Assembly: GCA_024277475.1 (NCBI GenBank) | Contig: JAJRVC010000454.1 | Span: 1-8,038 of the forward strand | Length of the DNA stretch: 8,038 bases | Origin: Deltaproteobacteria bacterium | GTDB taxonomy: Bacteria > Desulfobacterota > Desulfobacteria > Desulfobacterales > JAFDCJ01 | Reading direction: 5' to 3' | Shown: positions 1 to 8,030 of the stretch, in pieces | How positions within the stretch are numbered: the stretch's first letter is position 1 | Layout of the letters: each line of letters starts with the position of its first letter | Position numbers and translations under genes: made by a program | Notes under the pieces: model-generated | What the model was told of the DNA's origin: nothing | The model's database searches: none | Seen by the model: the letters and a program-made list of their open reading frames with translations, nothing else

Positions 1-118
1 AGGGACCTACACGGTGGTGGGAAACCGGGACGGCTACCAGGATGTGCGGCAAAAGATCGGGGTAAAACCCGGCCGGCAACCCTTGCGCATCACCGTTGAA
101 TGCCGGGTTAAGATTTGA
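1..118 (+). CDS. PEGA-like protein, C-terminal end only (5' truncated by window)
   Basis: The frame starting at base 2 is open to a TGA stop at 116-118 and encodes about 38 residues, beginning GTYTVVGNRDGYQDVRQ and ending ITVECRVKI. The pattern 'G-x-YTVVG-x-R-x-GY-x-DVR', then a beta strand and a Pro-Gly turn, resembles the last beta repeat of PEGA-type extracytoplasmic domains. The next gene also carries PEGA repeats. Its stop codon overlaps the TTG start of that gene in the four bases TTGA, so the two are probably translationally coupled and belong to one operon. The N-terminal part, and so the full domain architecture, lies outside the window. The reading frame is well supported by the overlap and by protein-like composition. 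The PEGA assignment is an inference from a short tail. Confidence 0.7.
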   Translation, partial: GTYTVVGNRDGYQDVRQKIGVKPGRQPLRITVECRVKI

Positions 119-2220
119 AAACCAAAGATAAAATCAAAGACCGCATCGGGCAACCGGTGGAGATAACACCGGTTTCTTTTCGTCCCGAACATCATCAGCG
201 GCGCTGGAAATCATCCATACGGCTGAAGTGGTTGCTGAATGCGACACTTGCAACAACCCTCGTCCTGCTTTGTGCCACAGCATGGTTCATATTTACGGCC
301 CGACGGGTGGTGATTCAAATTGTTCCGGAGCCGGACCGGATGTCAATTAACGGCGGCTTTGCGACGCCCAAATTTGGAGACTATTATTTGATGCGCCCTG
401 GTAAATATAACCTTCAGGCTGCCAGGCAGTGTTTTCAGCCGCTCAACAGGCCATTTGTGGTAGGAGCTGAAAAAAACCAGCAATTAAAATTTTCATTGGC
501 AAAACAGCCGGGACAGGTATCTTTCCAGGCTCATCAAGTGGATAAGTCGACGGTAAAACTTGAAAAGGCCCGGGTGTTTATTGACGGTAAGCAAGTCGGC
601 CAAACTCCGGTTGCTGCATTGGAGGTAAAGCCGGGTCGGCGGGTAATAGAGATCCGTACCGAAAATTACCTGAATTATCAAACCGAAATAGAGGTGGAGG
701 GCTGTGAAATTGTTCAGCAGTTCGACTTTGCTCTGATTCCGGGATGGTCGGACATCACCATCGATTCCATTCCCCGGGGAGCAACCGTGCTGGTCAATGG
801 AAAATCAGCCGGAAGCACACCGTTAAAGCTTGAACTGCCTGCCGGCGACCATGAGCTTGAGTTGAAGGCGGGCCGATTTAAACCGTGGCGCACGCGCCTG
901 GTGGTGGAGGCAAATCACCCGCAGGTGCTGGAACCTGTCCGTTTGCAGCCGGCGGACGGCACCCTAACGGTACGAACGAATCCATCCGGTGCGAATGTGA
1001 TGCTTTCAAACACCTTCGCCGGTCAGACGCCGATAAAGCTAACGCTGTCTGCCAACACAACCCACTCGATCCACCTGTCCAAGGCCGGATACGAAAAAGC
1101 AGACCGCAAAGTCATCCTGAACAGTGCCGAATCAAAAACGCTCACCGTCAGGCTAAAACCTAAACTGGGCGTCATCCACCTAACGGTGGAGCCGGCTGAT
1201 GCTGTGATTGTTATAGACGGAAAGCCAATGGGTAAAGTCCCGCGGCAATTGCGTATGGTTGCCGTTGAACACCGCCTGGAAATATCGAAAAAAGGATATG
1301 AACCGTATCGTACCCGCATTACCCCCCGACCGGGATTTGCCCAGGAAATCAAAGTGGCTTTAACCAGACTGGAAACCGTCAAAAAAACCGCGATCAGCAT
1401 TATCAGCGCTAAAAACGGCTATGAACTGACCCTGATTCGACCCCGGTCGTTTACCATGGGATCATCACGCCGGGAGCAGGGACGCCGTTCCAATGAGACC
1501 TTGCGCATCGTCAAACTTCAACGGCCGTTTTATATGGGTGTCCGGGAAGTTACCAACAGGGAATTCAGGCAATTTTTAGCCAGCCACACCTCGGGCTCAT
1601 TCAAAGGTCAAAACCTGAACCGGGATCCGTATTCCGTAGTTCAGGTAACCTGGCAGCAGGCAGCACAGTTTTGCAACTGGCTCAGCATCAAAGAATCGTT
1701 GGCCCCGGCTTACATCAGCAAAGGAGGCCGCCTGATAGCGGCAGATCCCGTGGGAACCGGATATCGCCTGCCCACGGAGGCCGAATGGGAGTATTGCGCC
1801 CGTTTCACTAAAAACGGGGCTGCCCTGAAATACCCGTGGGGAAACAAATACCCTCCGACCGGGAAGGCCGGAAATTTTGCGGATATATCCGCTAAAGACT
1901 TACTGACATCCTATCTGCAGATATATAATGACGGCTACCCGGTAACCGCACCTCCGGCGAAATTTAAGGCAAACGGGTCGGGTCTGTATGATATGGGAGG
2001 CAATGTGGCGGAATGGTGCCATGATTACTATTCGATTTATCCCTATAACGCTAAAAAAGTGTATACCGACCCCATGGGGCCCAAAGAAGGAAAGCACCAT
2101 GTCGTGCGCGATTCCAGCTGGAAACAGGCCGGTATCAGTGAGCTGCGGCTTTCGTACCGCGATTACAGCAGTACCATGCGGCCGGATCTGGGATTTCGGA
2201 TTTGCCGGTATTTGGAATGA
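115..2220 (+). CDS. Membrane-anchored PEGA-repeat protein with C-terminal FGE-like (SUMF1/EgtB/PvdO fold) domain, probable pseudoenzyme
   Basis: 701 residues. A basic cytoplasmic tail (1-38) precedes one membrane helix (about 39-61), so the rest should be periplasmic. Residues about 66-417 are beta-rich repeats. At least four look like PEGA units (about 135-207, 212-277, 283-347, 353-417), with the signature 'V-x-V/I-[DN]GK-x-x-G-x-TP' followed by a glycine/proline turn and 'GY' or similar. Residues about 433-700 match the formylglycine-generating-enzyme fold family: FTMGS, GYRLPTEAEWEYCAR, YPWGN, GLYDMGGNVAEW, and a closing GFRICRYL. The cysteine pair that genuine FGE uses in its RGGS..C....C segment is absent: here it reads RDSSWKQAGISELRLSYRD, with no Cys. 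Sulfatase activation is therefore unlikely, and a structural or binding role is more plausible. TTG at 115 is chosen because an in-frame stop lies at 109-111 and TTG overlaps the upstream stop. A later GTG at 157 is possible but has no such coupling. Confidence 0.88.
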   Translation: MKTKDKIKDRIGQPVEITPVSFRPEHHQRRWKSSIRLKWLLNATLATTLVLLCATAWFIFTARRVVIQIVPEPDRMSINGGFATPKFGDYYLMRPGKYNLQAARQCFQPLNRPFVVGAEKNQQLKFSLAKQPGQVSFQAHQVDKSTVKLEKARVFIDGKQVGQTPVAALEVKPGRRVIEIRTENYLNYQTEIEVEGCEIVQQFDFALIPGWSDITIDSIPRGATVLVNGKSAGSTPLKLELPAGDHELELKAGRFKPWRTRLVVEANHPQVLEPVRLQPADGTLTVRTNPSGANVMLSNTFAGQTPIKLTLSANTTHSIHLSKAGYEKADRKVILNSAESKTLTVRLKPKLGVIHLTVEPADAVIVIDGKPMGKVPRQLRMVAVEHRLEISKKGYEPYRTRITPRPGFAQEIKVALTRLETVKKTAISIISAKNGYELTLIRPRSFTMGSSRREQGRRSNETLRIVKLQRPFYMGVREVTNREFRQFLASHTSGSFKGQNLNRDPYSVVQVTWQQAAQFCNWLSIKESLAPAYISKGGRLIAADPVGTGYRLPTEAEWEYCARFTKNGAALKYPWGNKYPPTGKAGNFADISAKDLLTSYLQIYNDGYPVTAPPAKFKANGSGLYDMGGNVAEWCHDYYSIYPYNAKKVYTDPMGPKEGKHHVVRDSSWKQAGISELRLSYRDYSSTMRPDLGFRICRYLE

Positions 2221-2597: not shown

Positions 2598-2960
2598 ATG
2601 AAAAATACACTCAGCAAGAGCATATCGGCACTGGCTGCAGCGATAGTTATCTTGAGCGCACCGATAACTCCGGCAATGAATGCGGTTGTTACAGCCCGAA
2701 ACCCCGGGCGAACAGATATTCTGCATCAAACCACTTCAACGCAGGAAACAATTGTTTTAGCTCAAAATGAGGAAACTACAACTAAAGACAAAAATAACAC
2801 GGCTTCCGGTGCGCAGGACCAGACGCCTGAACCGGGGACAGTCCCGAAAGCTGACAGCAACGACCCATTCACCAAATCAAGGGCAGCGCCTTTAAGACCC
2901 TTTGTCCCTTCGGAGAAAATACCGGCAGAGCAGGCGGTTGATTTCCCGGTAGATATATGA
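2598..2960 (+). CDS. Small exported protein with signal peptide and C-terminal PSEKI...FPVDI motif, function unknown
   Basis: 120 residues. The first 29 look like a Sec signal peptide: MKNT-K charge, a hydrophobic stretch ALAAAIVILSAPIT, and a probable cleavage near AMNA (27-29). The middle (about 33-95) is polar, low in hydrophobic residues and rich in Thr, Asn, Gln, Asp and Pro, so probably disordered. The C-terminus (98-120) is more protein-like and ends PFVPSEKIPAEQAVDFPVDI. From memory this kind of tail recurs in small envelope proteins, so it may be a docking motif. No catalytic motif is visible. The ATG has no recognisable Shine-Dalgarno sequence and follows a C/A-rich leader, an odd context shared with the next gene. 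Low-complexity spacers flank it on both sides within an otherwise compact cluster. It is called a gene because of the coherent signal peptide and conserved-looking tail. Function is not assigned. Confidence 0.72.
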   Translation: MKNTLSKSISALAAAIVILSAPITPAMNAVVTARNPGRTDILHQTTSTQETIVLAQNEETTTKDKNNTASGAQDQTPEPGTVPKADSNDPFTKSRAAPLRPFVPSEKIPAEQAVDFPVDI

Positions 2961-3177
2961 AAACAGAGGTTGGAGGTCGGAGGCAATGGAAAGCGGAATT
3001 GGGAATGCGGAAGGATAGCAGTTGAGAAGATGAGAAGGTGGGATGGTGAAAGGATAATTCTTAATTTTTACTGTTTAACTCAAAATTAACAACTTAATTA
3101 ATCAACCAATCAACGATCCTAACGATCTAAACCATCTAAACGAACATAACGAACCAAACGGACTACGGACAACCATT
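2961..3177. other. 217-base low-complexity intergenic spacer, second copy of the block pattern
   Basis: This repeats the architecture of the preceding spacer in shorter form. A G/A-rich block (about 2966-3052) is followed by an A/T-rich block (about 3053-3093), then a C/A-rich block built from loosely repeating words such as caacgatc, taacgatct, aaccatct, aaacgaac and ataacgaac (about 3094-3174). The segment at 3031-3046 matches 2305-2320 at 15 of 16 positions, and 3048-3070 matches 2486-2508 exactly. No gene, terminator or convincing promoter is seen. Confidence 0.7.
3048..3070 (+). repeat. 23-base direct repeat, copy 2
   Basis: Identical over 23 bases to 2486-2508. Just upstream, 3031-3046 matches 2305-2320 with one mismatch. 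In this copy the two modules are almost adjacent, whereas in copy 1 about 165 bases separate them. This suggests that spacer sequence was duplicated and then shortened or expanded between modules. Confidence 0.85.
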
Positions 3178-3981
3178 ATGAAAAAAACTTTTCCGATTTC
3201 TTTTGAGTTCATCTACCAGCTGTTTTCCTTAATATTGATTATTATCATCGTACACGCCGTCTATCTGGCTGTGATTCGCCCCAAGGCCGACAAGATTCTG
3301 GCCAGACAGGTGGCCATGCTGAATGAGGACAAATCACCGGCTACCGAGCGGTCCGTATTTATATTGATTAAGGACTATGAGCAGGAAACCTGTTTTATTC
3401 TCATGTTCTGGTCACTGGCCCTCATGATCTATAAAAGCGTTGTTACCATCAGGCATCGAGAGTTGTTGCAAAAAGATTTGATCCCATTGGCGGAGGGTGT
3501 GCGTATTCTGCCGGAAGATACCCGCGATCTGTCGCGGCAAATTCAGGCCCTGCCGCCTCATCAGCGAAGCGCTTTGCTTCCCAGGGCCTTGCTGGCGGCC
3601 TTGCACAGGTTCAGCACAACCCGAAACATCCAGGATGCAGCCGGCGCCAGCCATGCATACTGTGCTGCGGAAGCCGATCGGCTGGAATCGGAGTTGTCCA
3701 TGATCCGCTATATTGCCTGGGCGATTCCTTCGGTAGGCTTTATCGGCACCGTAAGGGGTATCGGGCAAGCCCTTGGACAGGCCCACAAGGCGATTGAAGG
3801 AGATATCTTTGATGTCACCACGAGTTTGGGCGTGGCATTTAATTCAACTTTTATCGCCCTGCTAATCAGCATCGTGCTGATGTTCCTGCTTCATCAATTG
3901 CAATCGCTTCAAGAGCATTATGTGCTGGACACTGAAGCCTATATTGAAGAAAATCTGACAAGGCATCTGCATACACAGTGA
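3178..3981 (+). CDS. MotA/TolQ/ExbB-family proton channel subunit
   Basis: 267 residues. Four membrane helices can be read: about 13-33, 70-90, 177-200 and 214-238. Helices 3 and 4 carry the family hallmark. PSVGFIGTVRGIGQALGQA (184-202) corresponds to the 'P-x-x-G-x-x-GTV-x-GI' segment of TolQ and ExbB. LGVAFNSTFIALLISI (217-232) corresponds to the pore-lining helix with the conserved small residues and Thr (here T224). Such subunits form inner-membrane rings that pass ions around a dimeric MotB/TolR/ExbD-type partner. The long stretch 91-176 is the cytoplasmic domain. No ordinary ExbD, TolR or MotB gene is nearby. The two downstream VWA proteins with Asp-containing N-terminal helices are the best partner candidates. 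The ATG at 3178 lacks a clear Shine-Dalgarno sequence, but the next residues are a normal N-terminus and no better start exists upstream. Confidence 0.88.
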   Translation: MKKTFPISFEFIYQLFSLILIIIIVHAVYLAVIRPKADKILARQVAMLNEDKSPATERSVFILIKDYEQETCFILMFWSLALMIYKSVVTIRHRELLQKDLIPLAEGVRILPEDTRDLSRQIQALPPHQRSALLPRALLAALHRFSTTRNIQDAAGASHAYCAAEADRLESELSMIRYIAWAIPSVGFIGTVRGIGQALGQAHKAIEGDIFDVTTSLGVAFNSTFIALLISIVLMFLLHQLQSLQEHYVLDTEAYIEENLTRHLHTQ

Positions 3982-4072
3982 AAGAGTTTTCTCGTCGACC
4001 CATAACTTTTGGAATTTATTTGGTATATTGTCCAGAATGTAAAATTCAAAGCACGAAACCCGAAACAATTTC

Positions 4073-4078
4073 AAAAGG
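4073..4078 (+). promoter_or_regulatory. Ribosome binding site that decides the start of the actin-like/FHA gene
   Basis: AAAAGG lies eight bases before the ATG at 4087. The open frame extends upstream to a TTG at 4009, but that extra part has the composition of the non-coding spacers (gaatttatttgg..., cgaaacccgaaac) and would put 26 unrelated residues before the phosphate-1-like strand. The ATG at 4087 is therefore preferred. The whole 3982-4086 stretch is read as a 105-base spacer. Confidence 0.65.
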
Positions 4079-4086
4079 CTTCTCCA

Positions 4087-5505
4087 ATGACTTTATTAGG
4101 ATTGGAATTAAGTGATGCCGGCATCATGGCCGCTGCCGGCTCTTTTGCCGAATTGCTTGCAATCGACGGACAGGCCACGGAGAGTCCCGGCTTTGCACTG
4201 CCGCAAAAAAACGGTTTGCTGGTGGGAAAAGTTGCCGAAAGCAAAGCACACCTGTTTCCGCGTCAAATCCTGAATCATTTCTGGGATCGGCTGGATACCG
4301 AACCTATAGAGCAGCATAGACGATATGGACCGCAAAATAACGCCGAAATCGTATACAGCCATTTGGCTTTGATACGGCAGCAGATTCAAAAACACGGGGA
4401 TCAAATCGTCATGGCCGTTCCGGGTTTCTATGACCGCGAACAGCTGGGGCTTATCCTGGGTATCACCCAGGAATTGTCCCTGCCGGTTAAAGGATTCGTA
4501 CCCATGGCACTAGCGGCATCGTCTGTTGCCTGTCCGCACAAAATGCTTTTGTACCTGGATATTCACCTGCACCGCATCGAAGTCATCTATCTTAAGCAGG
4601 GGGAACATCTGACAATAGAAGATTCGGTAACAGCCACCCAAAAAGGTCTTATTCGGCTGTACCGGGAATGGGTGGACGCGATTGCACAGGAATTTGTTCG
4701 CACCACCCGCTTTGACCCTTTACACCAGGCCACCTCGGAACAGGAACTGCATGATCGCCTGCCCGGGATTCTCTCACAGCTTCAGCAAAATCCGACCCTG
4801 ATTTTTGAAATAAACGGCGGGGCCGCACGCTACAATATTACTTTGAAACGCGACCTCATCACCCGCAAGGCTGAACCGATTTACGCTGAACTGAACCGCT
4901 TAATTGCAAGAATACGAAACAAACACCCAAAAGACAAACCGGCGGTAGTCCTTCAAGTATCACACCGCCTCACCCGTCTGCCCGGATGCAGGGAAATGCT
5001 GGCCACCATAAAAGATGCTCAAATTATTGAGCTCGACCGGGGTGCCGGAGCTTATGGTGTGCTTGGAATCTGGAACCGGTTATCCGATCAACACAGTAGT
5101 AAAAATGTATCTTTTTTCACCAGTCGTCCATGGCAACCTTCCCACCGGGAGTATGATCAACTTCCGTCCGGAAAGCGGGTGACCGAACCCCTGCCGACAC
5201 ACTTGCTCTATCGCAGCATTGCTTATCCGATCACTGAAAACCCGCTGATCATCGGTCGGGAAATGGGTACCGGCAATACAGGCGTGCATATTTACGGCCA
5301 GACAGCCGGGAACTGTGCCAGACATTGCTCAGTTGAGCTCCAAGGCCGGGAAATTGTGCTCAATGATTTCAGCACTGACGGAACTTTCGTGAATGGAATC
5401 CGCGTAAACGGGAGTATGGCCCTGAAACTCGGCCAGACTATTCGGTTGGGGACAGACGGCCAACAGCTCCAATTGATCGCCTGCCTGGAGAAAGATGAAA
5501 CGTAA
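4087..5505 (+). CDS. Degenerate actin/Hsp70-like domain fused to C-terminal FHA domain
   Basis: 472 residues from the ATG at 4087, with no signal peptide or membrane helix, so probably cytoplasmic. Residues 1-330 follow the ASKHA (actin/Hsp70/sugar kinase) layout. GLELSDAGI (5-13) sits where the phosphate-1 loop is expected, and IVMAVPGFYDREQLGLILGI (107-126) mirrors the Hsp70 'VxTVPAxFxxxQR' strand and helix. VKGFVPMALAAS (134-145) mirrors the 'NEPTAAAL' segment, and LLYLDIHLHRIEVIYL (154-169) lies where phosphate-2 should be but lacks its glycines. ATP hydrolysis is doubtful. Residues about 375-467 are an FHA domain: LIIGRE (387-392), ARHCSVEL (411-418), LNDFSTDGTFVNGIRV (425-440). FHA domains bind phosphothreonine. 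Here the usual Ser of 'S-x-x-H' is Cys410, while the Arg of GR and Asn436 remain. The 3' end overlaps the next gene by 11 bases. It is likely a cytoplasmic adaptor or regulator of the membrane complex. Confidence 0.82.
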   Translation: MTLLGLELSDAGIMAAAGSFAELLAIDGQATESPGFALPQKNGLLVGKVAESKAHLFPRQILNHFWDRLDTEPIEQHRRYGPQNNAEIVYSHLALIRQQIQKHGDQIVMAVPGFYDREQLGLILGITQELSLPVKGFVPMALAASSVACPHKMLLYLDIHLHRIEVIYLKQGEHLTIEDSVTATQKGLIRLYREWVDAIAQEFVRTTRFDPLHQATSEQELHDRLPGILSQLQQNPTLIFEINGGAARYNITLKRDLITRKAEPIYAELNRLIARIRNKHPKDKPAVVLQVSHRLTRLPGCREMLATIKDAQIIELDRGAGAYGVLGIWNRLSDQHSSKNVSFFTSRPWQPSHREYDQLPSGKRVTEPLPTHLLYRSIAYPITENPLIIGREMGTGNTGVHIYGQTAGNCARHCSVELQGREIVLNDFSTDGTFVNGIRVNGSMALKLGQTIRLGTDGQQLQLIACLEKDET

Positions 5506-6586
5506 GCGCCTGAATGTCTTCAGTTTGTCCTTTCTGGACATTATTACCTGCGGTCTGGGAGCGATCATTTTGTTGTTCGTCCTGGTAAATGCCAAAAGTG
5601 CCGCCCGGCGCGACACCGTTACGGCCGACCTTCGTGCTGAAGTCGACCGCATCGAAAACCAGGTGTTCGAAGACAAAAAACAATTAATCCGGTCCCGCAA
5701 TATACTGACAAAAATTCTGGCCGAACTGGTAAAAACACAAGGACTTTCCCGCCGGGTAATCGAGACCATCAAAGAAAAAAAGGTTGAGCTGGCCGACAGC
5801 GATAGGGACACCCTGGCGTCAAAAACCCATGTCAACAAATTAAAAGCCGATCTGAAATCCCTGGAAAAAGATGTTAAACGACTGAGAGCCGGGGCCGGTG
5901 CACGGGATGAACTCGGCTCCAAACTGCGACCATTTCCCGGACACGGTGATCGTCAATATCTCACAGATCTGAAAATGGGCGGTAGACGGATTTTTATACT
6001 GGTGGATTCCTCAGCCAGCATGCTGGATAAAACTATTGTCGGTGTCATTCGCCGGCGTAACCTGCGGATACAAGAAAAATTAAAATCTCCCAAATGGCAG
6101 CAGACAGTCAAGACCCTCGACTGGTTAATCACTCAGCTGCCCCCGACGAGCAAATTCCAAGTGTACACGTTTAATGAAACCGCCGGACCTTTAGTTGCCG
6201 GAACCAACGGAACCTGGCTGAATGCCGGTGAGGTCGATAAACTCAATCAAGCAGTGGCCCGGATGCGCAAACTGGTCCCGCAAAAAGGTACCAGCCTGTT
6301 AAATGCCTTTAACGCTATCGGTGAAATGAAACCGGCACCGGATAATATTTTTCTGTTGTCAGACAGCCTGCCGACCCAGGGAGCTAAAAAACCCTGGGGG
6401 AAAAGAGTTTCCGGGAAAAAACGCCTGCGCTTGTTTAATGATGCTGTCCGGCGGCTGCCTTCACGGGTGCCGGTCAATATTATTTTGTATCCCATGGAAG
6501 GCGATCCCTTTGCCGCCAGTGCGTTCTGGAAGCTGGCCAAGGATACCAGGGGGTCCTTTTTCTGTCCTTCACGGGATTGGCCATGA
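5495..6586 (+). CDS. VWA-domain protein 1 with MotB/TolR-like Asp-containing N-terminal membrane helix
   Basis: 363 residues. A basic N-terminus (MKRKR) is followed by FSLSFLD and one membrane helix (about 12-31, ending GAIILLFVL), placing the remainder outside the cytoplasm. Asp15 sits at the start of the helix, as in the proton-carrying helix of TolR, ExbD and MotB (for example 'PLLDVLL' in TolR). Residues about 40-131 are charged and heptad-like, a probable coiled coil. The VWA domain covers about 164-359 with a complete metal-binding MIDAS: DSSAS (D171, S173, S175), T266 in KGTSLLNAF, and D290 in FLLSDS. The ATG has GGAG four bases upstream (5487-5490) inside the previous gene and overlaps its end by 11 bases. 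The stop overlaps the next start as ATGA. The domain calls are firm. The channel-partner role is inferred. Confidence 0.88.
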   Translation: MKRKRLNVFSLSFLDIITCGLGAIILLFVLVNAKSAARRDTVTADLRAEVDRIENQVFEDKKQLIRSRNILTKILAELVKTQGLSRRVIETIKEKKVELADSDRDTLASKTHVNKLKADLKSLEKDVKRLRAGAGARDELGSKLRPFPGHGDRQYLTDLKMGGRRIFILVDSSASMLDKTIVGVIRRRNLRIQEKLKSPKWQQTVKTLDWLITQLPPTSKFQVYTFNETAGPLVAGTNGTWLNAGEVDKLNQAVARMRKLVPQKGTSLLNAFNAIGEMKPAPDNIFLLSDSLPTQGAKKPWGKRVSGKKRLRLFNDAVRRLPSRVPVNIILYPMEGDPFAASAFWKLAKDTRGSFFCPSRDWP

Positions 6587-7584
6587 AATCACGTCGCCGC
6601 GATATCGAAATATTCAGCCTGTCCTTTCTGGATGTGATCTGCTGTGGTTTTGGCGCCATCATCCTGTTGTTTGTATTATCCAAGTTCGCTGAACCCGTTA
6701 TCATCGAAAAGTTGAACAAAGATCTTTTATCTGTAATAGTTCAGCGGGAAGAGGAACTGCAAGAAATCCGCGGTAAGACAGCGGTGCTCAATCGAGAGTT
6801 ACGGGGGAAAAAAGAACAGCTGTCGCAAGAGAAGAAAAAACTGGCCCGGCTGCAGGGCGACCTGTCAAATATCAAAGGAGAATTTGCGGCATCGGATCAA
6901 CACGCGCAGGTGCAAAATATCATTGAGGAGAAGCTGGCCCGGGCACTTCAGCAGCTTACCGCTGAAATGAAACGGCTGTTGAAAAATCAGCCCCGGCAAG
7001 TTGACCGTTCAGTCGGCGGTATCCCGGTGGACAGTGAATATATCATCTTTATCATTGACACCTCCGGCAGCATGCAGCGCAACGCCTGGAGCCTGGTGCA
7101 GAAAAAGCTTGCTGAAACTTTAAAAGTATATCCGAAAGTAAAAGGTATTCAGATCATGAACGACATGGGCAACTACATGTTTTCCCAGTACCGGGGAAAA
7201 TGGATACCCGACACCCCCGCCCGCCGTCGCGCAATCATTTCCAGCCTGAGTACCTGGCGCTCGTTTAGCAACAGCAGTCCGGTGGAGGGCATTGAAGCGG
7301 CAATCAGGACGTTTTATTCTCCGGATAAAAAAATCAGTCTGTTTGTCTTCGGCGACGAGTTCAGCGGCAACGCAATTCAACCGGTTATCGACGAAGTCGA
7401 TCGGATCAACAGAGCCACAAAAGATGGAACGCGCCGGGTCCGGATCCATGCCGTGGGATTTCCTGTTATGTTAAAAGACAGCGTCGGGCGCGGCAACACC
7501 GGGGAGCGTTTTGCCACCCTCATGCGGATTTTGTGTCAAAAAAACGGCGGCACCTTTGTGGGATTGAACAGTACGAGACCGTAG
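6583..7584 (+). CDS. VWA-domain protein 2 (paralog), Asp-containing N-terminal membrane helix
   Basis: 333 residues from the ATG at 6583, which overlaps the previous stop in ATGA. A TTG six bases earlier is open but less likely. The architecture matches the preceding protein: basic tail MKSRRR, FSLSFLD (11-17) and a helix ending GAIILLFVL (24-32). This 22-residue anchor shares 19 identities with the first VWA protein, including the Asp (here D17). Residues about 55-135 are rich in Glu, Lys, Arg, Gln and Leu and probably form a coiled coil. The VWA domain (about 150-328) has DTSGS (D159, S161, S163) and D258 in FVFGDEFSG. The middle MIDAS Thr is probably replaced by Ser in NSSPVEG (230-236). 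Outside the anchor and MIDAS the two proteins have diverged strongly, so this is an old duplication. They may form a heterodimer in the ring of the MotA/TolQ/ExbB protein. It is the last gene of the cluster. Confidence 0.88.
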   Translation: MKSRRRDIEIFSLSFLDVICCGFGAIILLFVLSKFAEPVIIEKLNKDLLSVIVQREEELQEIRGKTAVLNRELRGKKEQLSQEKKKLARLQGDLSNIKGEFAASDQHAQVQNIIEEKLARALQQLTAEMKRLLKNQPRQVDRSVGGIPVDSEYIIFIIDTSGSMQRNAWSLVQKKLAETLKVYPKVKGIQIMNDMGNYMFSQYRGKWIPDTPARRRAIISSLSTWRSFSNSSPVEGIEAAIRTFYSPDKKISLFVFGDEFSGNAIQPVIDEVDRINRATKDGTRRVRIHAVGFPVMLKDSVGRGNTGERFATLMRILCQKNGGTFVGLNSTRP

Positions 7585-7805: not shown

Positions 7806-8030
7806 ATGGAAACGGTCCGTATCAATGTCAGCATGCCCAAGAATGTATTCAGGGAGCTCTCTCAAGAGGTAGAATCCAGAAAAAGGAGCCGTTTTATTAC
7901 AGAGGCTATCGTGCGACTGGTTAAAGAACGAAGAGATCAAAGACTTGCTGTCGAATATCAGGAAGCGGCAGCAGAAATGCATCGGATTAACAAGGAGCTT
8001 GAAGGAGCAATTAATGATGGCCTCGATTAG
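7806..8030 (+). CDS. Ribbon-helix-helix antitoxin, probably of a MazF/PemK-type pair
   Basis: 74 residues. The N-terminus TVRINVSMP (3-11) is the DNA-binding beta strand of the MetJ/Arc/CopG (ribbon-helix-helix) fold. It is followed by helix A (about 12-23) and helix B with KRSRFITEAIVRLVKER (26-42), the typical '(R)SRFI-x-EAI' pattern. The tail (43-74, LAVEYQEAAAEMHRINKELEG...DGLD) is acidic and helical, as expected for the toxin-neutralising part. The fold and length fit antitoxins that repress their own operon and wrap around an endoribonuclease toxin. It is preceded by its own strong promoter and ribosome binding site. Its last codons overlap the start of another open frame with its own AGGAG site, a common arrangement in toxin-antitoxin operons. 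The fold is clear. The toxin family is inferred, because only a few of its codons are visible. Confidence 0.87.
   Translation: METVRINVSMPKNVFRELSQEVESRKRSRFITEAIVRLVKERRDQRLAVEYQEAAAEMHRINKELEGAINDGLD

Follow-up and report, generated by a model that had tools for sequence, protein, structure and literature searches.

A TolQ/ExbB-type channel gene and paired Asp-helix VWA genes in a conserved gene run: a probable envelope motor

Described motors and the channel-VWA locus

In the class of motors set out in sections of PMC9389320 and PMC8986121, a pentamer is built around a pair of single helices; protons are carried by an acidic residue, and force passes through the dimer to periplasmic partners. 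The closest described systems are the TPH-vWA/TolQ-like motors. Section 8 of PMC12204202 (Mol Biol Evol 2025) reports vWA genes in heterologous pairs beside tolQ, with no tolR or exbD; the proteins have a transpore helix with a conserved Asp, and in AlphaFold 3 (AF3) models of Idiomarina homologs a ring of threonines encloses the Asp residues. The second vWA family of that paper is placed mainly in Proteobacteria and Verrucomicrobia, and section 8 proposes no partner for it. Here we describe a related locus in a window of 8,038 nucleotides, this being the whole stretch of DNA analysed (positions 1 to 8,038 of contig JAJRVC010000454.1, assembly GCA_024277475.1, a deltaproteobacterium of the Desulfobacterales). 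It contains the gene for a MotA/TolQ/ExbB-type channel (3178..3981, + strand) and, further downstream, two genes for proteins with VWA domains, VWA1 (5495..6586, +) and VWA2 (6583..7584, +).

As far as the text of PMC12204202 sets them out, the TPH-vWA motors have in common with this locus the adjacent TolQ-like gene, the lack of tolR or exbD nearby, the heterologous pair of transmembrane-tethered vWA proteins and the conserved helix Asp. We assign the locus to that class as a new member, and the mechanism of a VWA-pair motor is already in print as a prediction. A preliminary description of this DNA had called the arrangement undescribed, a term which section 8 and its AF3 models overtake. The pairing proposed there fared better, in that the channel and the Asp helix were found together wherever the contig allowed and the residues concerned are invariant, and its more specific suggestion, a VWA binding event driven or gated by proton flow, is a hypothesis; what it lacked, apart from novelty of mechanism, was any mention of the operon partners, namely a lipoprotein, a TPR protein and a protein with PEGA and FGE-sulfatase domains (PEGA-FGE). 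In section 8 and the related passages of PMC12204202 the second family is likewise given no partner of the PEGA-FGE, lipoprotein, kinase or Hsp70-FHA kind, though the figures or supplements of the paper may show such, and heads other than VWA on the helix are unmentioned there. Relatives of L135, a member found here, include proteins of Thalassomonas, Thalassotalea and Pseudoalteromonas. None of the 120 relatives listed bears the name Idiomarina, the seed genus of that paper, though most of them are nameless.

Three other systems bear comparison. ExbBD and TolQR resemble the window in channel homology, in the threonine pair and in a single-helix partner with an Asp near the helix start; they differ in that the output in the window is a long helical stalk with a VWA domain, with no ExbD match and with two different partners. 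AglRQS, of Myxococcus gliding, also has one MotA-like gene and two different MotB-like genes according to part of PMC9389320, AglQ and AglS being likened here by description. GldKLMN/PorKLMN, the type IX secretion motor, is a pentamer-type motor whose dimer contacts GldK (sections of PMC8986121), and the best NCBIfam model for the PEGA-FGE protein of the window is GldK (TIGR03525). The score of 132 bits is, however, below the equivalog cut-off of 350, and GldL and GldM were set against the channel and the VWA proteins by family scans only. Zorya and other defence systems were rejected as relatives; the channel reached just E 0.0037 with a ZorA model and no Zor model was among the matches of the other three proteins scanned. 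PMC12505986 contains no vWA or FHA term.

Channel residues, Asp helices and gene pairing

The locus probably encodes an inner-membrane, ion-driven motor of the 5:2 type, in which a VWA heterodimer acts on periplasmic and outer-membrane partners. This reading draws on the family of the channel, the invariant Asp and threonines, the pairing of the genes in all assessable cases, the lack of ExbD nearby and the VWA fold. The channel exceeded the curated cut-off of the Pfam model MotA_ExbB (PF01618; 49.5 against 22.9 bits). In profile comparison with hhalign it aligned with E. coli ExbB (E 5.5e-6) and TolQ (E 5.1e-6) at a probability of 86%, and marginally with MotA (E 0.01, probability 4%). A PDB sequence-profile search with the channel alignment gave no matches at E 0.001, and the kinship with ExbB therefore rests on Pfam and hhalign. 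When the channel is aligned to ExbB, T191, T224 and P184 correspond to Thr148, Thr181 and Pro141, residues named as conserved in a part of PMC12215075. T191 and T224 were invariant in 26/26 rows of operon channels (26 of the 49 listed, or trimmed forms of these), in 15/15 rows of a wider set and in 81/81 of the largest. In the largest alignments (72, 64 and 81 rows) gapped cells were excluded from every denominator, and the rows include repeats of one genome reached via two loci. A plasmid search with the channel gave three weak matches. The channel signature was also observed near the C-terminus of much longer open reading frames (ORFs) of 674 to 1194 residues, with start sites unchecked, at L160:1854-3878 (-), L161:9118-12702 (-), L127:3674-6205 (+) and L129:5670-8096 (-).

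VWA1 and VWA2 each have a single N-terminal helix that includes the motif FSLSFLD, with the Asp at position 15 in VWA1 and 17 in VWA2, followed by a long helical stalk region and the VWA domain. The channel and two Asp-helix VWA proteins claimed earlier for this window are confirmed. The two proteins are 22% identical, and their helix-coding stretches (5519..5580 and 6613..6674, both +) form a direct repeat at 74%. The VWA fold was seen in the predicted model of VWA2, and the MIDAS (metal-ion-dependent adhesion site)-type residues are invariant. The helix Asp was invariant in the aligned rows of both VWA sets (62/62 and 63/63), so that the poor conservation named in the preliminary description as a refuting outcome did not appear; it was also invariant in 21/21 helices when non-VWA forms were included. 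A plasmid search with VWA2 gave no match. When the VWA alignment was taken to the PDB in a profile search, most of the matches were coiled-coil proteins, and the result was not used.

The distribution of the gene pair was determined by scanning genome contigs of 84,980 species with the VWA1 alignment. This gave 55 loci, all of them thus found through VWA1. Where the sequence upstream of VWA1 exceeded 2.6 kb, the channel was present in 46/46 loci, and it was found in 3 of the other 9 as well; VWA2 was present in 43/44 loci with more than 1.5 kb downstream. Genomes drawn from single phyla were then surveyed. In the phylum of G001 (labelled Desulfobacterales) 7/297 drawn genomes matched, and the channel adjoined in all 7. 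In that of G003 (labelled Gammaproteobacteria) there were 16 matches in 398 drawn genomes, with the channel within the gene run in 15; the remaining match, G427, starts at a contig end. In the phylum of G007 (a Kuenenia bin, presumably Planctomycetota) at least 114/199 genomes matched the full VWA profile. Most of the matches listed extended over no more than the VWA domain and were disregarded, and for that reason a helix-only profile, built from channel-linked proteins, was used. It found 14 places in 9/119 genomes of this phylum, every one in a channel-containing gene run. In the phylum of G261, 4/198 genomes matched the same profile and all 4 had the channel. For eight helix places the gap to the Pfam channel match was 53 to 1964 bases, compared to a chance of about 0.002-0.005 per place of having a channel gene within 2 kb (computed for four genomes). 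Three genomes were unlisted in a helix survey though matching another survey (G823 in the G007 phylum, G274 and G277 in the G261 phylum), having been undrawn or missed. Nine loci from the full-VWA-profile survey, L122-L130, were also examined. L130 (G802) was excluded, as both the helix motif and the channel were missing there, and the channel of L127 was found by Pfam as an overlapping ORF 183 bases from the first helix. That VWA homologs might commonly occur without a channel, a weakness foreseen in the preliminary description, is correct for generic helix-less VWA proteins, but the helix-bearing proteins were always paired with the channel where this could be assessed. Desulfobacterales-like copies of the operon were observed in bins labelled Candidatus Kuenenia and Nitrospinia (L030 and L009, VWA1 61% and 72% identical), by mis-binning or transfer.

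The earlier statement that no ordinary ExbD gene lies in the window agrees with a wider check. In the 20 genomes examined, the contig of the operon had no ExbD match at a distance of 12 kb or less, although some contigs are short, and the nearest match was about 12.7 kb away (G002).

Several points weigh against this reading. L016 yielded no VWA2, although about 1.7 kb of sequence was available there; most of the loci are in metagenome bins; neither VWA protein matched the ExbD model PF02472, even with E values of up to 0.1 allowed; and in L122-L126 the channel was seen with just a single helix gene next to it. The last of these means that the heterodimer is no general rule of the helix family.

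Proposed mechanism and alternatives

For the motor of the window we infer a 5:2 stoichiometry, a VWA heterodimer, protons as the ion, and rotation. Five copies of the 3178-3981 product would form a ring around two N-terminal helices, one from VWA1 and the other from VWA2, and the Asp of each helix would carry the protons, opposite the threonines of the channel. By analogy, the stalked VWA heads may act on the PEGA-FGE protein, TPR proteins and a probable outer-membrane lipoprotein, much as GldM does on GldK. The Hsp70-FHA protein, together with a TPR-borne kinase domain in a few lineages, might adjust the motor from the cytosol. The PEGA-FGE protein is the first candidate for the load because GldM contacts GldK (in the portion of PMC8986121 cited above) and GldK is its closest NCBIfam model. 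If this is true, Mot, Tol, Ton, Gld and Zorya do not exhaust the family of proton-powered envelope motors, and its output head is swappable.

An unlikely alternative is that the complex, instead of being a motor, forms a gated channel or senses the state of the envelope, its VWA heads binding an envelope ligand and the movement of the helices signalling to the cytosol via the Hsp70-FHA protein. The FHA gene is found in 24/29 well-covered loci, kinase motifs occur in 6/46 TPR proteins (with a Pfam kinase in L036), and the operon has FGE-like and lipoprotein-like proteins. These parts recall TagQ, TagR, PpkA and Fha of the threonine-phosphorylation pathway of the type VI secretion system, where we take TagR to be FGE-like and PpkA to have a VWA domain. 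The pathway itself is described in part of PMC10482370. However, the FHA gene was not found in L050-L055, nor between the channel and VWA1 in L064-L067, and few loci have kinase motifs. Because FHA and kinase are dispensable, a core function in phospho-signalling was ranked second; the conserved parts are the channel, with its motor residues retained, the periplasmic proteins and the VWA pair.

It is improbable that the VWA proteins flank the pentamer as TonB/TolA-like transducers while an ExbD/TolR-type dimer encoded elsewhere fills the pore. ExbD-type genes do exist elsewhere in 20/20 genomes checked, and a side-binding vWA family with an SHLS motif is described in the sections cited of PMC12204202. 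The SHLS motif is absent from all 21 helices inspected here, by contrast, and as judged by eye the invariant Asp stands where ExbD and TolR have theirs; the lack of an ExbD match within 12 kb on the operon's contig in the same 20 genomes also argues against it. A chance neighbourhood of an ExbB-type gene and unrelated VWA genes, for which no point in favour was found, can be practically dismissed, being contradicted by the pairing in every assessable genome of four phylum surveys and by the low chance per place given above.

The same helix also occurs on other heads. In G261 and G203 it is on proteins of 269 and 230 residues beside a channel gene. The G261 protein had a weak DUF5697 match (26.0 bits against a cut-off of 27) and no VWA match; the G203 protein resembles it by eye. 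FHA, kinase and PEGA domains lie near helix genes of this type. L122 and L123 have a single helix-VWA gene beside the channel with the VWA domain over the cut-off, and L125 has one just under it. The single helix protein of L126 had no Pfam match, yet was matched by the full VWA profile. In L127 and L160 there are paired helix proteins beside the channel, with no Pfam domain over the cut-off. The Asp-helix proteins beside a channel that have no recognised VWA domain are at L131:6731-7540 (-), L132:7522-8214 (-), L160:857-1838 (-) and L127:5506-8972 (+). These sequences point to a helix cassette with exchangeable heads. In L126 a gene with an FHA domain and a trypsin-like protease (8384-10414, -) was observed directly before the channel and the single helix protein.

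A wider proposal is possible, if somewhat short of probable. The F-x-L-S-F-L-D helix may be the general axle cassette of a large ExbD/TolR-free branch of TolQ-like motors, with one channel type driving paired VWA, single VWA and DUF5697-like heads as well as heads for which Pfam offers nothing convincing. The machine that it would power in Desulfobacterota and Gammaproteobacteria would span the envelope and be encoded by seven to nine genes; its load would be the lipoprotein and the GldK-like FGE protein, and the Hsp70-fold FHA protein would control it from the cytosol. This would amount to a type IX-like motor assembly in bacteria outside Bacteroidota.

Candidate partner genes and other features of the window

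The genes of the window were read as a single run on the + strand. The conserved run has seven to nine genes, encoding a lipoprotein, a TPR protein, the GldK-resembling PEGA-FGE protein, the channel, often the Hsp70-FHA protein, VWA1 and VWA2. Conservation of the operon suggests that the TPR protein, the PEGA-FGE protein and the lipoprotein are partners of the motor, and these neighbours are concrete candidates for the load of a VWA motor. The named relatives of VWA1 are Desulfobacterales-type records. It also has relatives in named marine genera, among them Pseudoalteromonas, Thalassomonas and Microbulbifer, so that gene removal might be tested in cultured bacteria.

The window opens with the C-terminal end of a TPR-protein gene cut by its edge (2..118, +), whose translation, GTYTVVGNRDGYQDVRQK...CRVKI followed by the stop, resembles the C-terminus of TPR proteins upstream in L001 and L036. 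The PEGA-FGE gene (115..2220, +) overlaps the TPR stop if the TTG at 115 is its start. Its product is a membrane protein of 701 residues with four PEGA domains (E 3.4e-54) and an FGE-sulfatase domain (E 6.3e-38), a probable periplasmic partner, and is present in 29/29 loci with more than 9.8 kb upstream. Judged by eye, there is no Cys in the DSSWKQAGISELRLSYRD stretch, where the catalytic Cys pair would be expected, in the window and the other rows inspected (13/49 rows in all). A catalytic FGE role is doubted on that account.

The product of 4087..5505 (+) is of cytosolic type and combines the fold of the Hsp70 nucleotide-binding domain with an FHA domain. Its presumed phosphate loops, located by eye, read GLELSDAG and LDIHLHR in the window and are not glycine-rich; to judge from the sequence the protein is possibly a pseudo-chaperone scaffold. 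The FHA motif looks eroded in gammaproteobacterial members. The start of VWA1 overlaps the end of the FHA gene, and VWA2 starts at an ATGA across the VWA1 stop.

A small, poorly conserved protein with a signal-like N-terminus is encoded by an ORF at 2598..2960 (+), and a related ORF was clustered in 22 loci. Purine-rich repeats are common to the two spacers that flank this gene (2221-2597 and 2961-3177), about 47 nt at 74% and, over a stretch of 26 nt, 96%; the spacers also have short tandem runs. After the operon there is a short ORF (7806-8030) of ribbon-helix-helix/HicB-like antitoxin type, with weak Pfam matches that are all under the cut-off.

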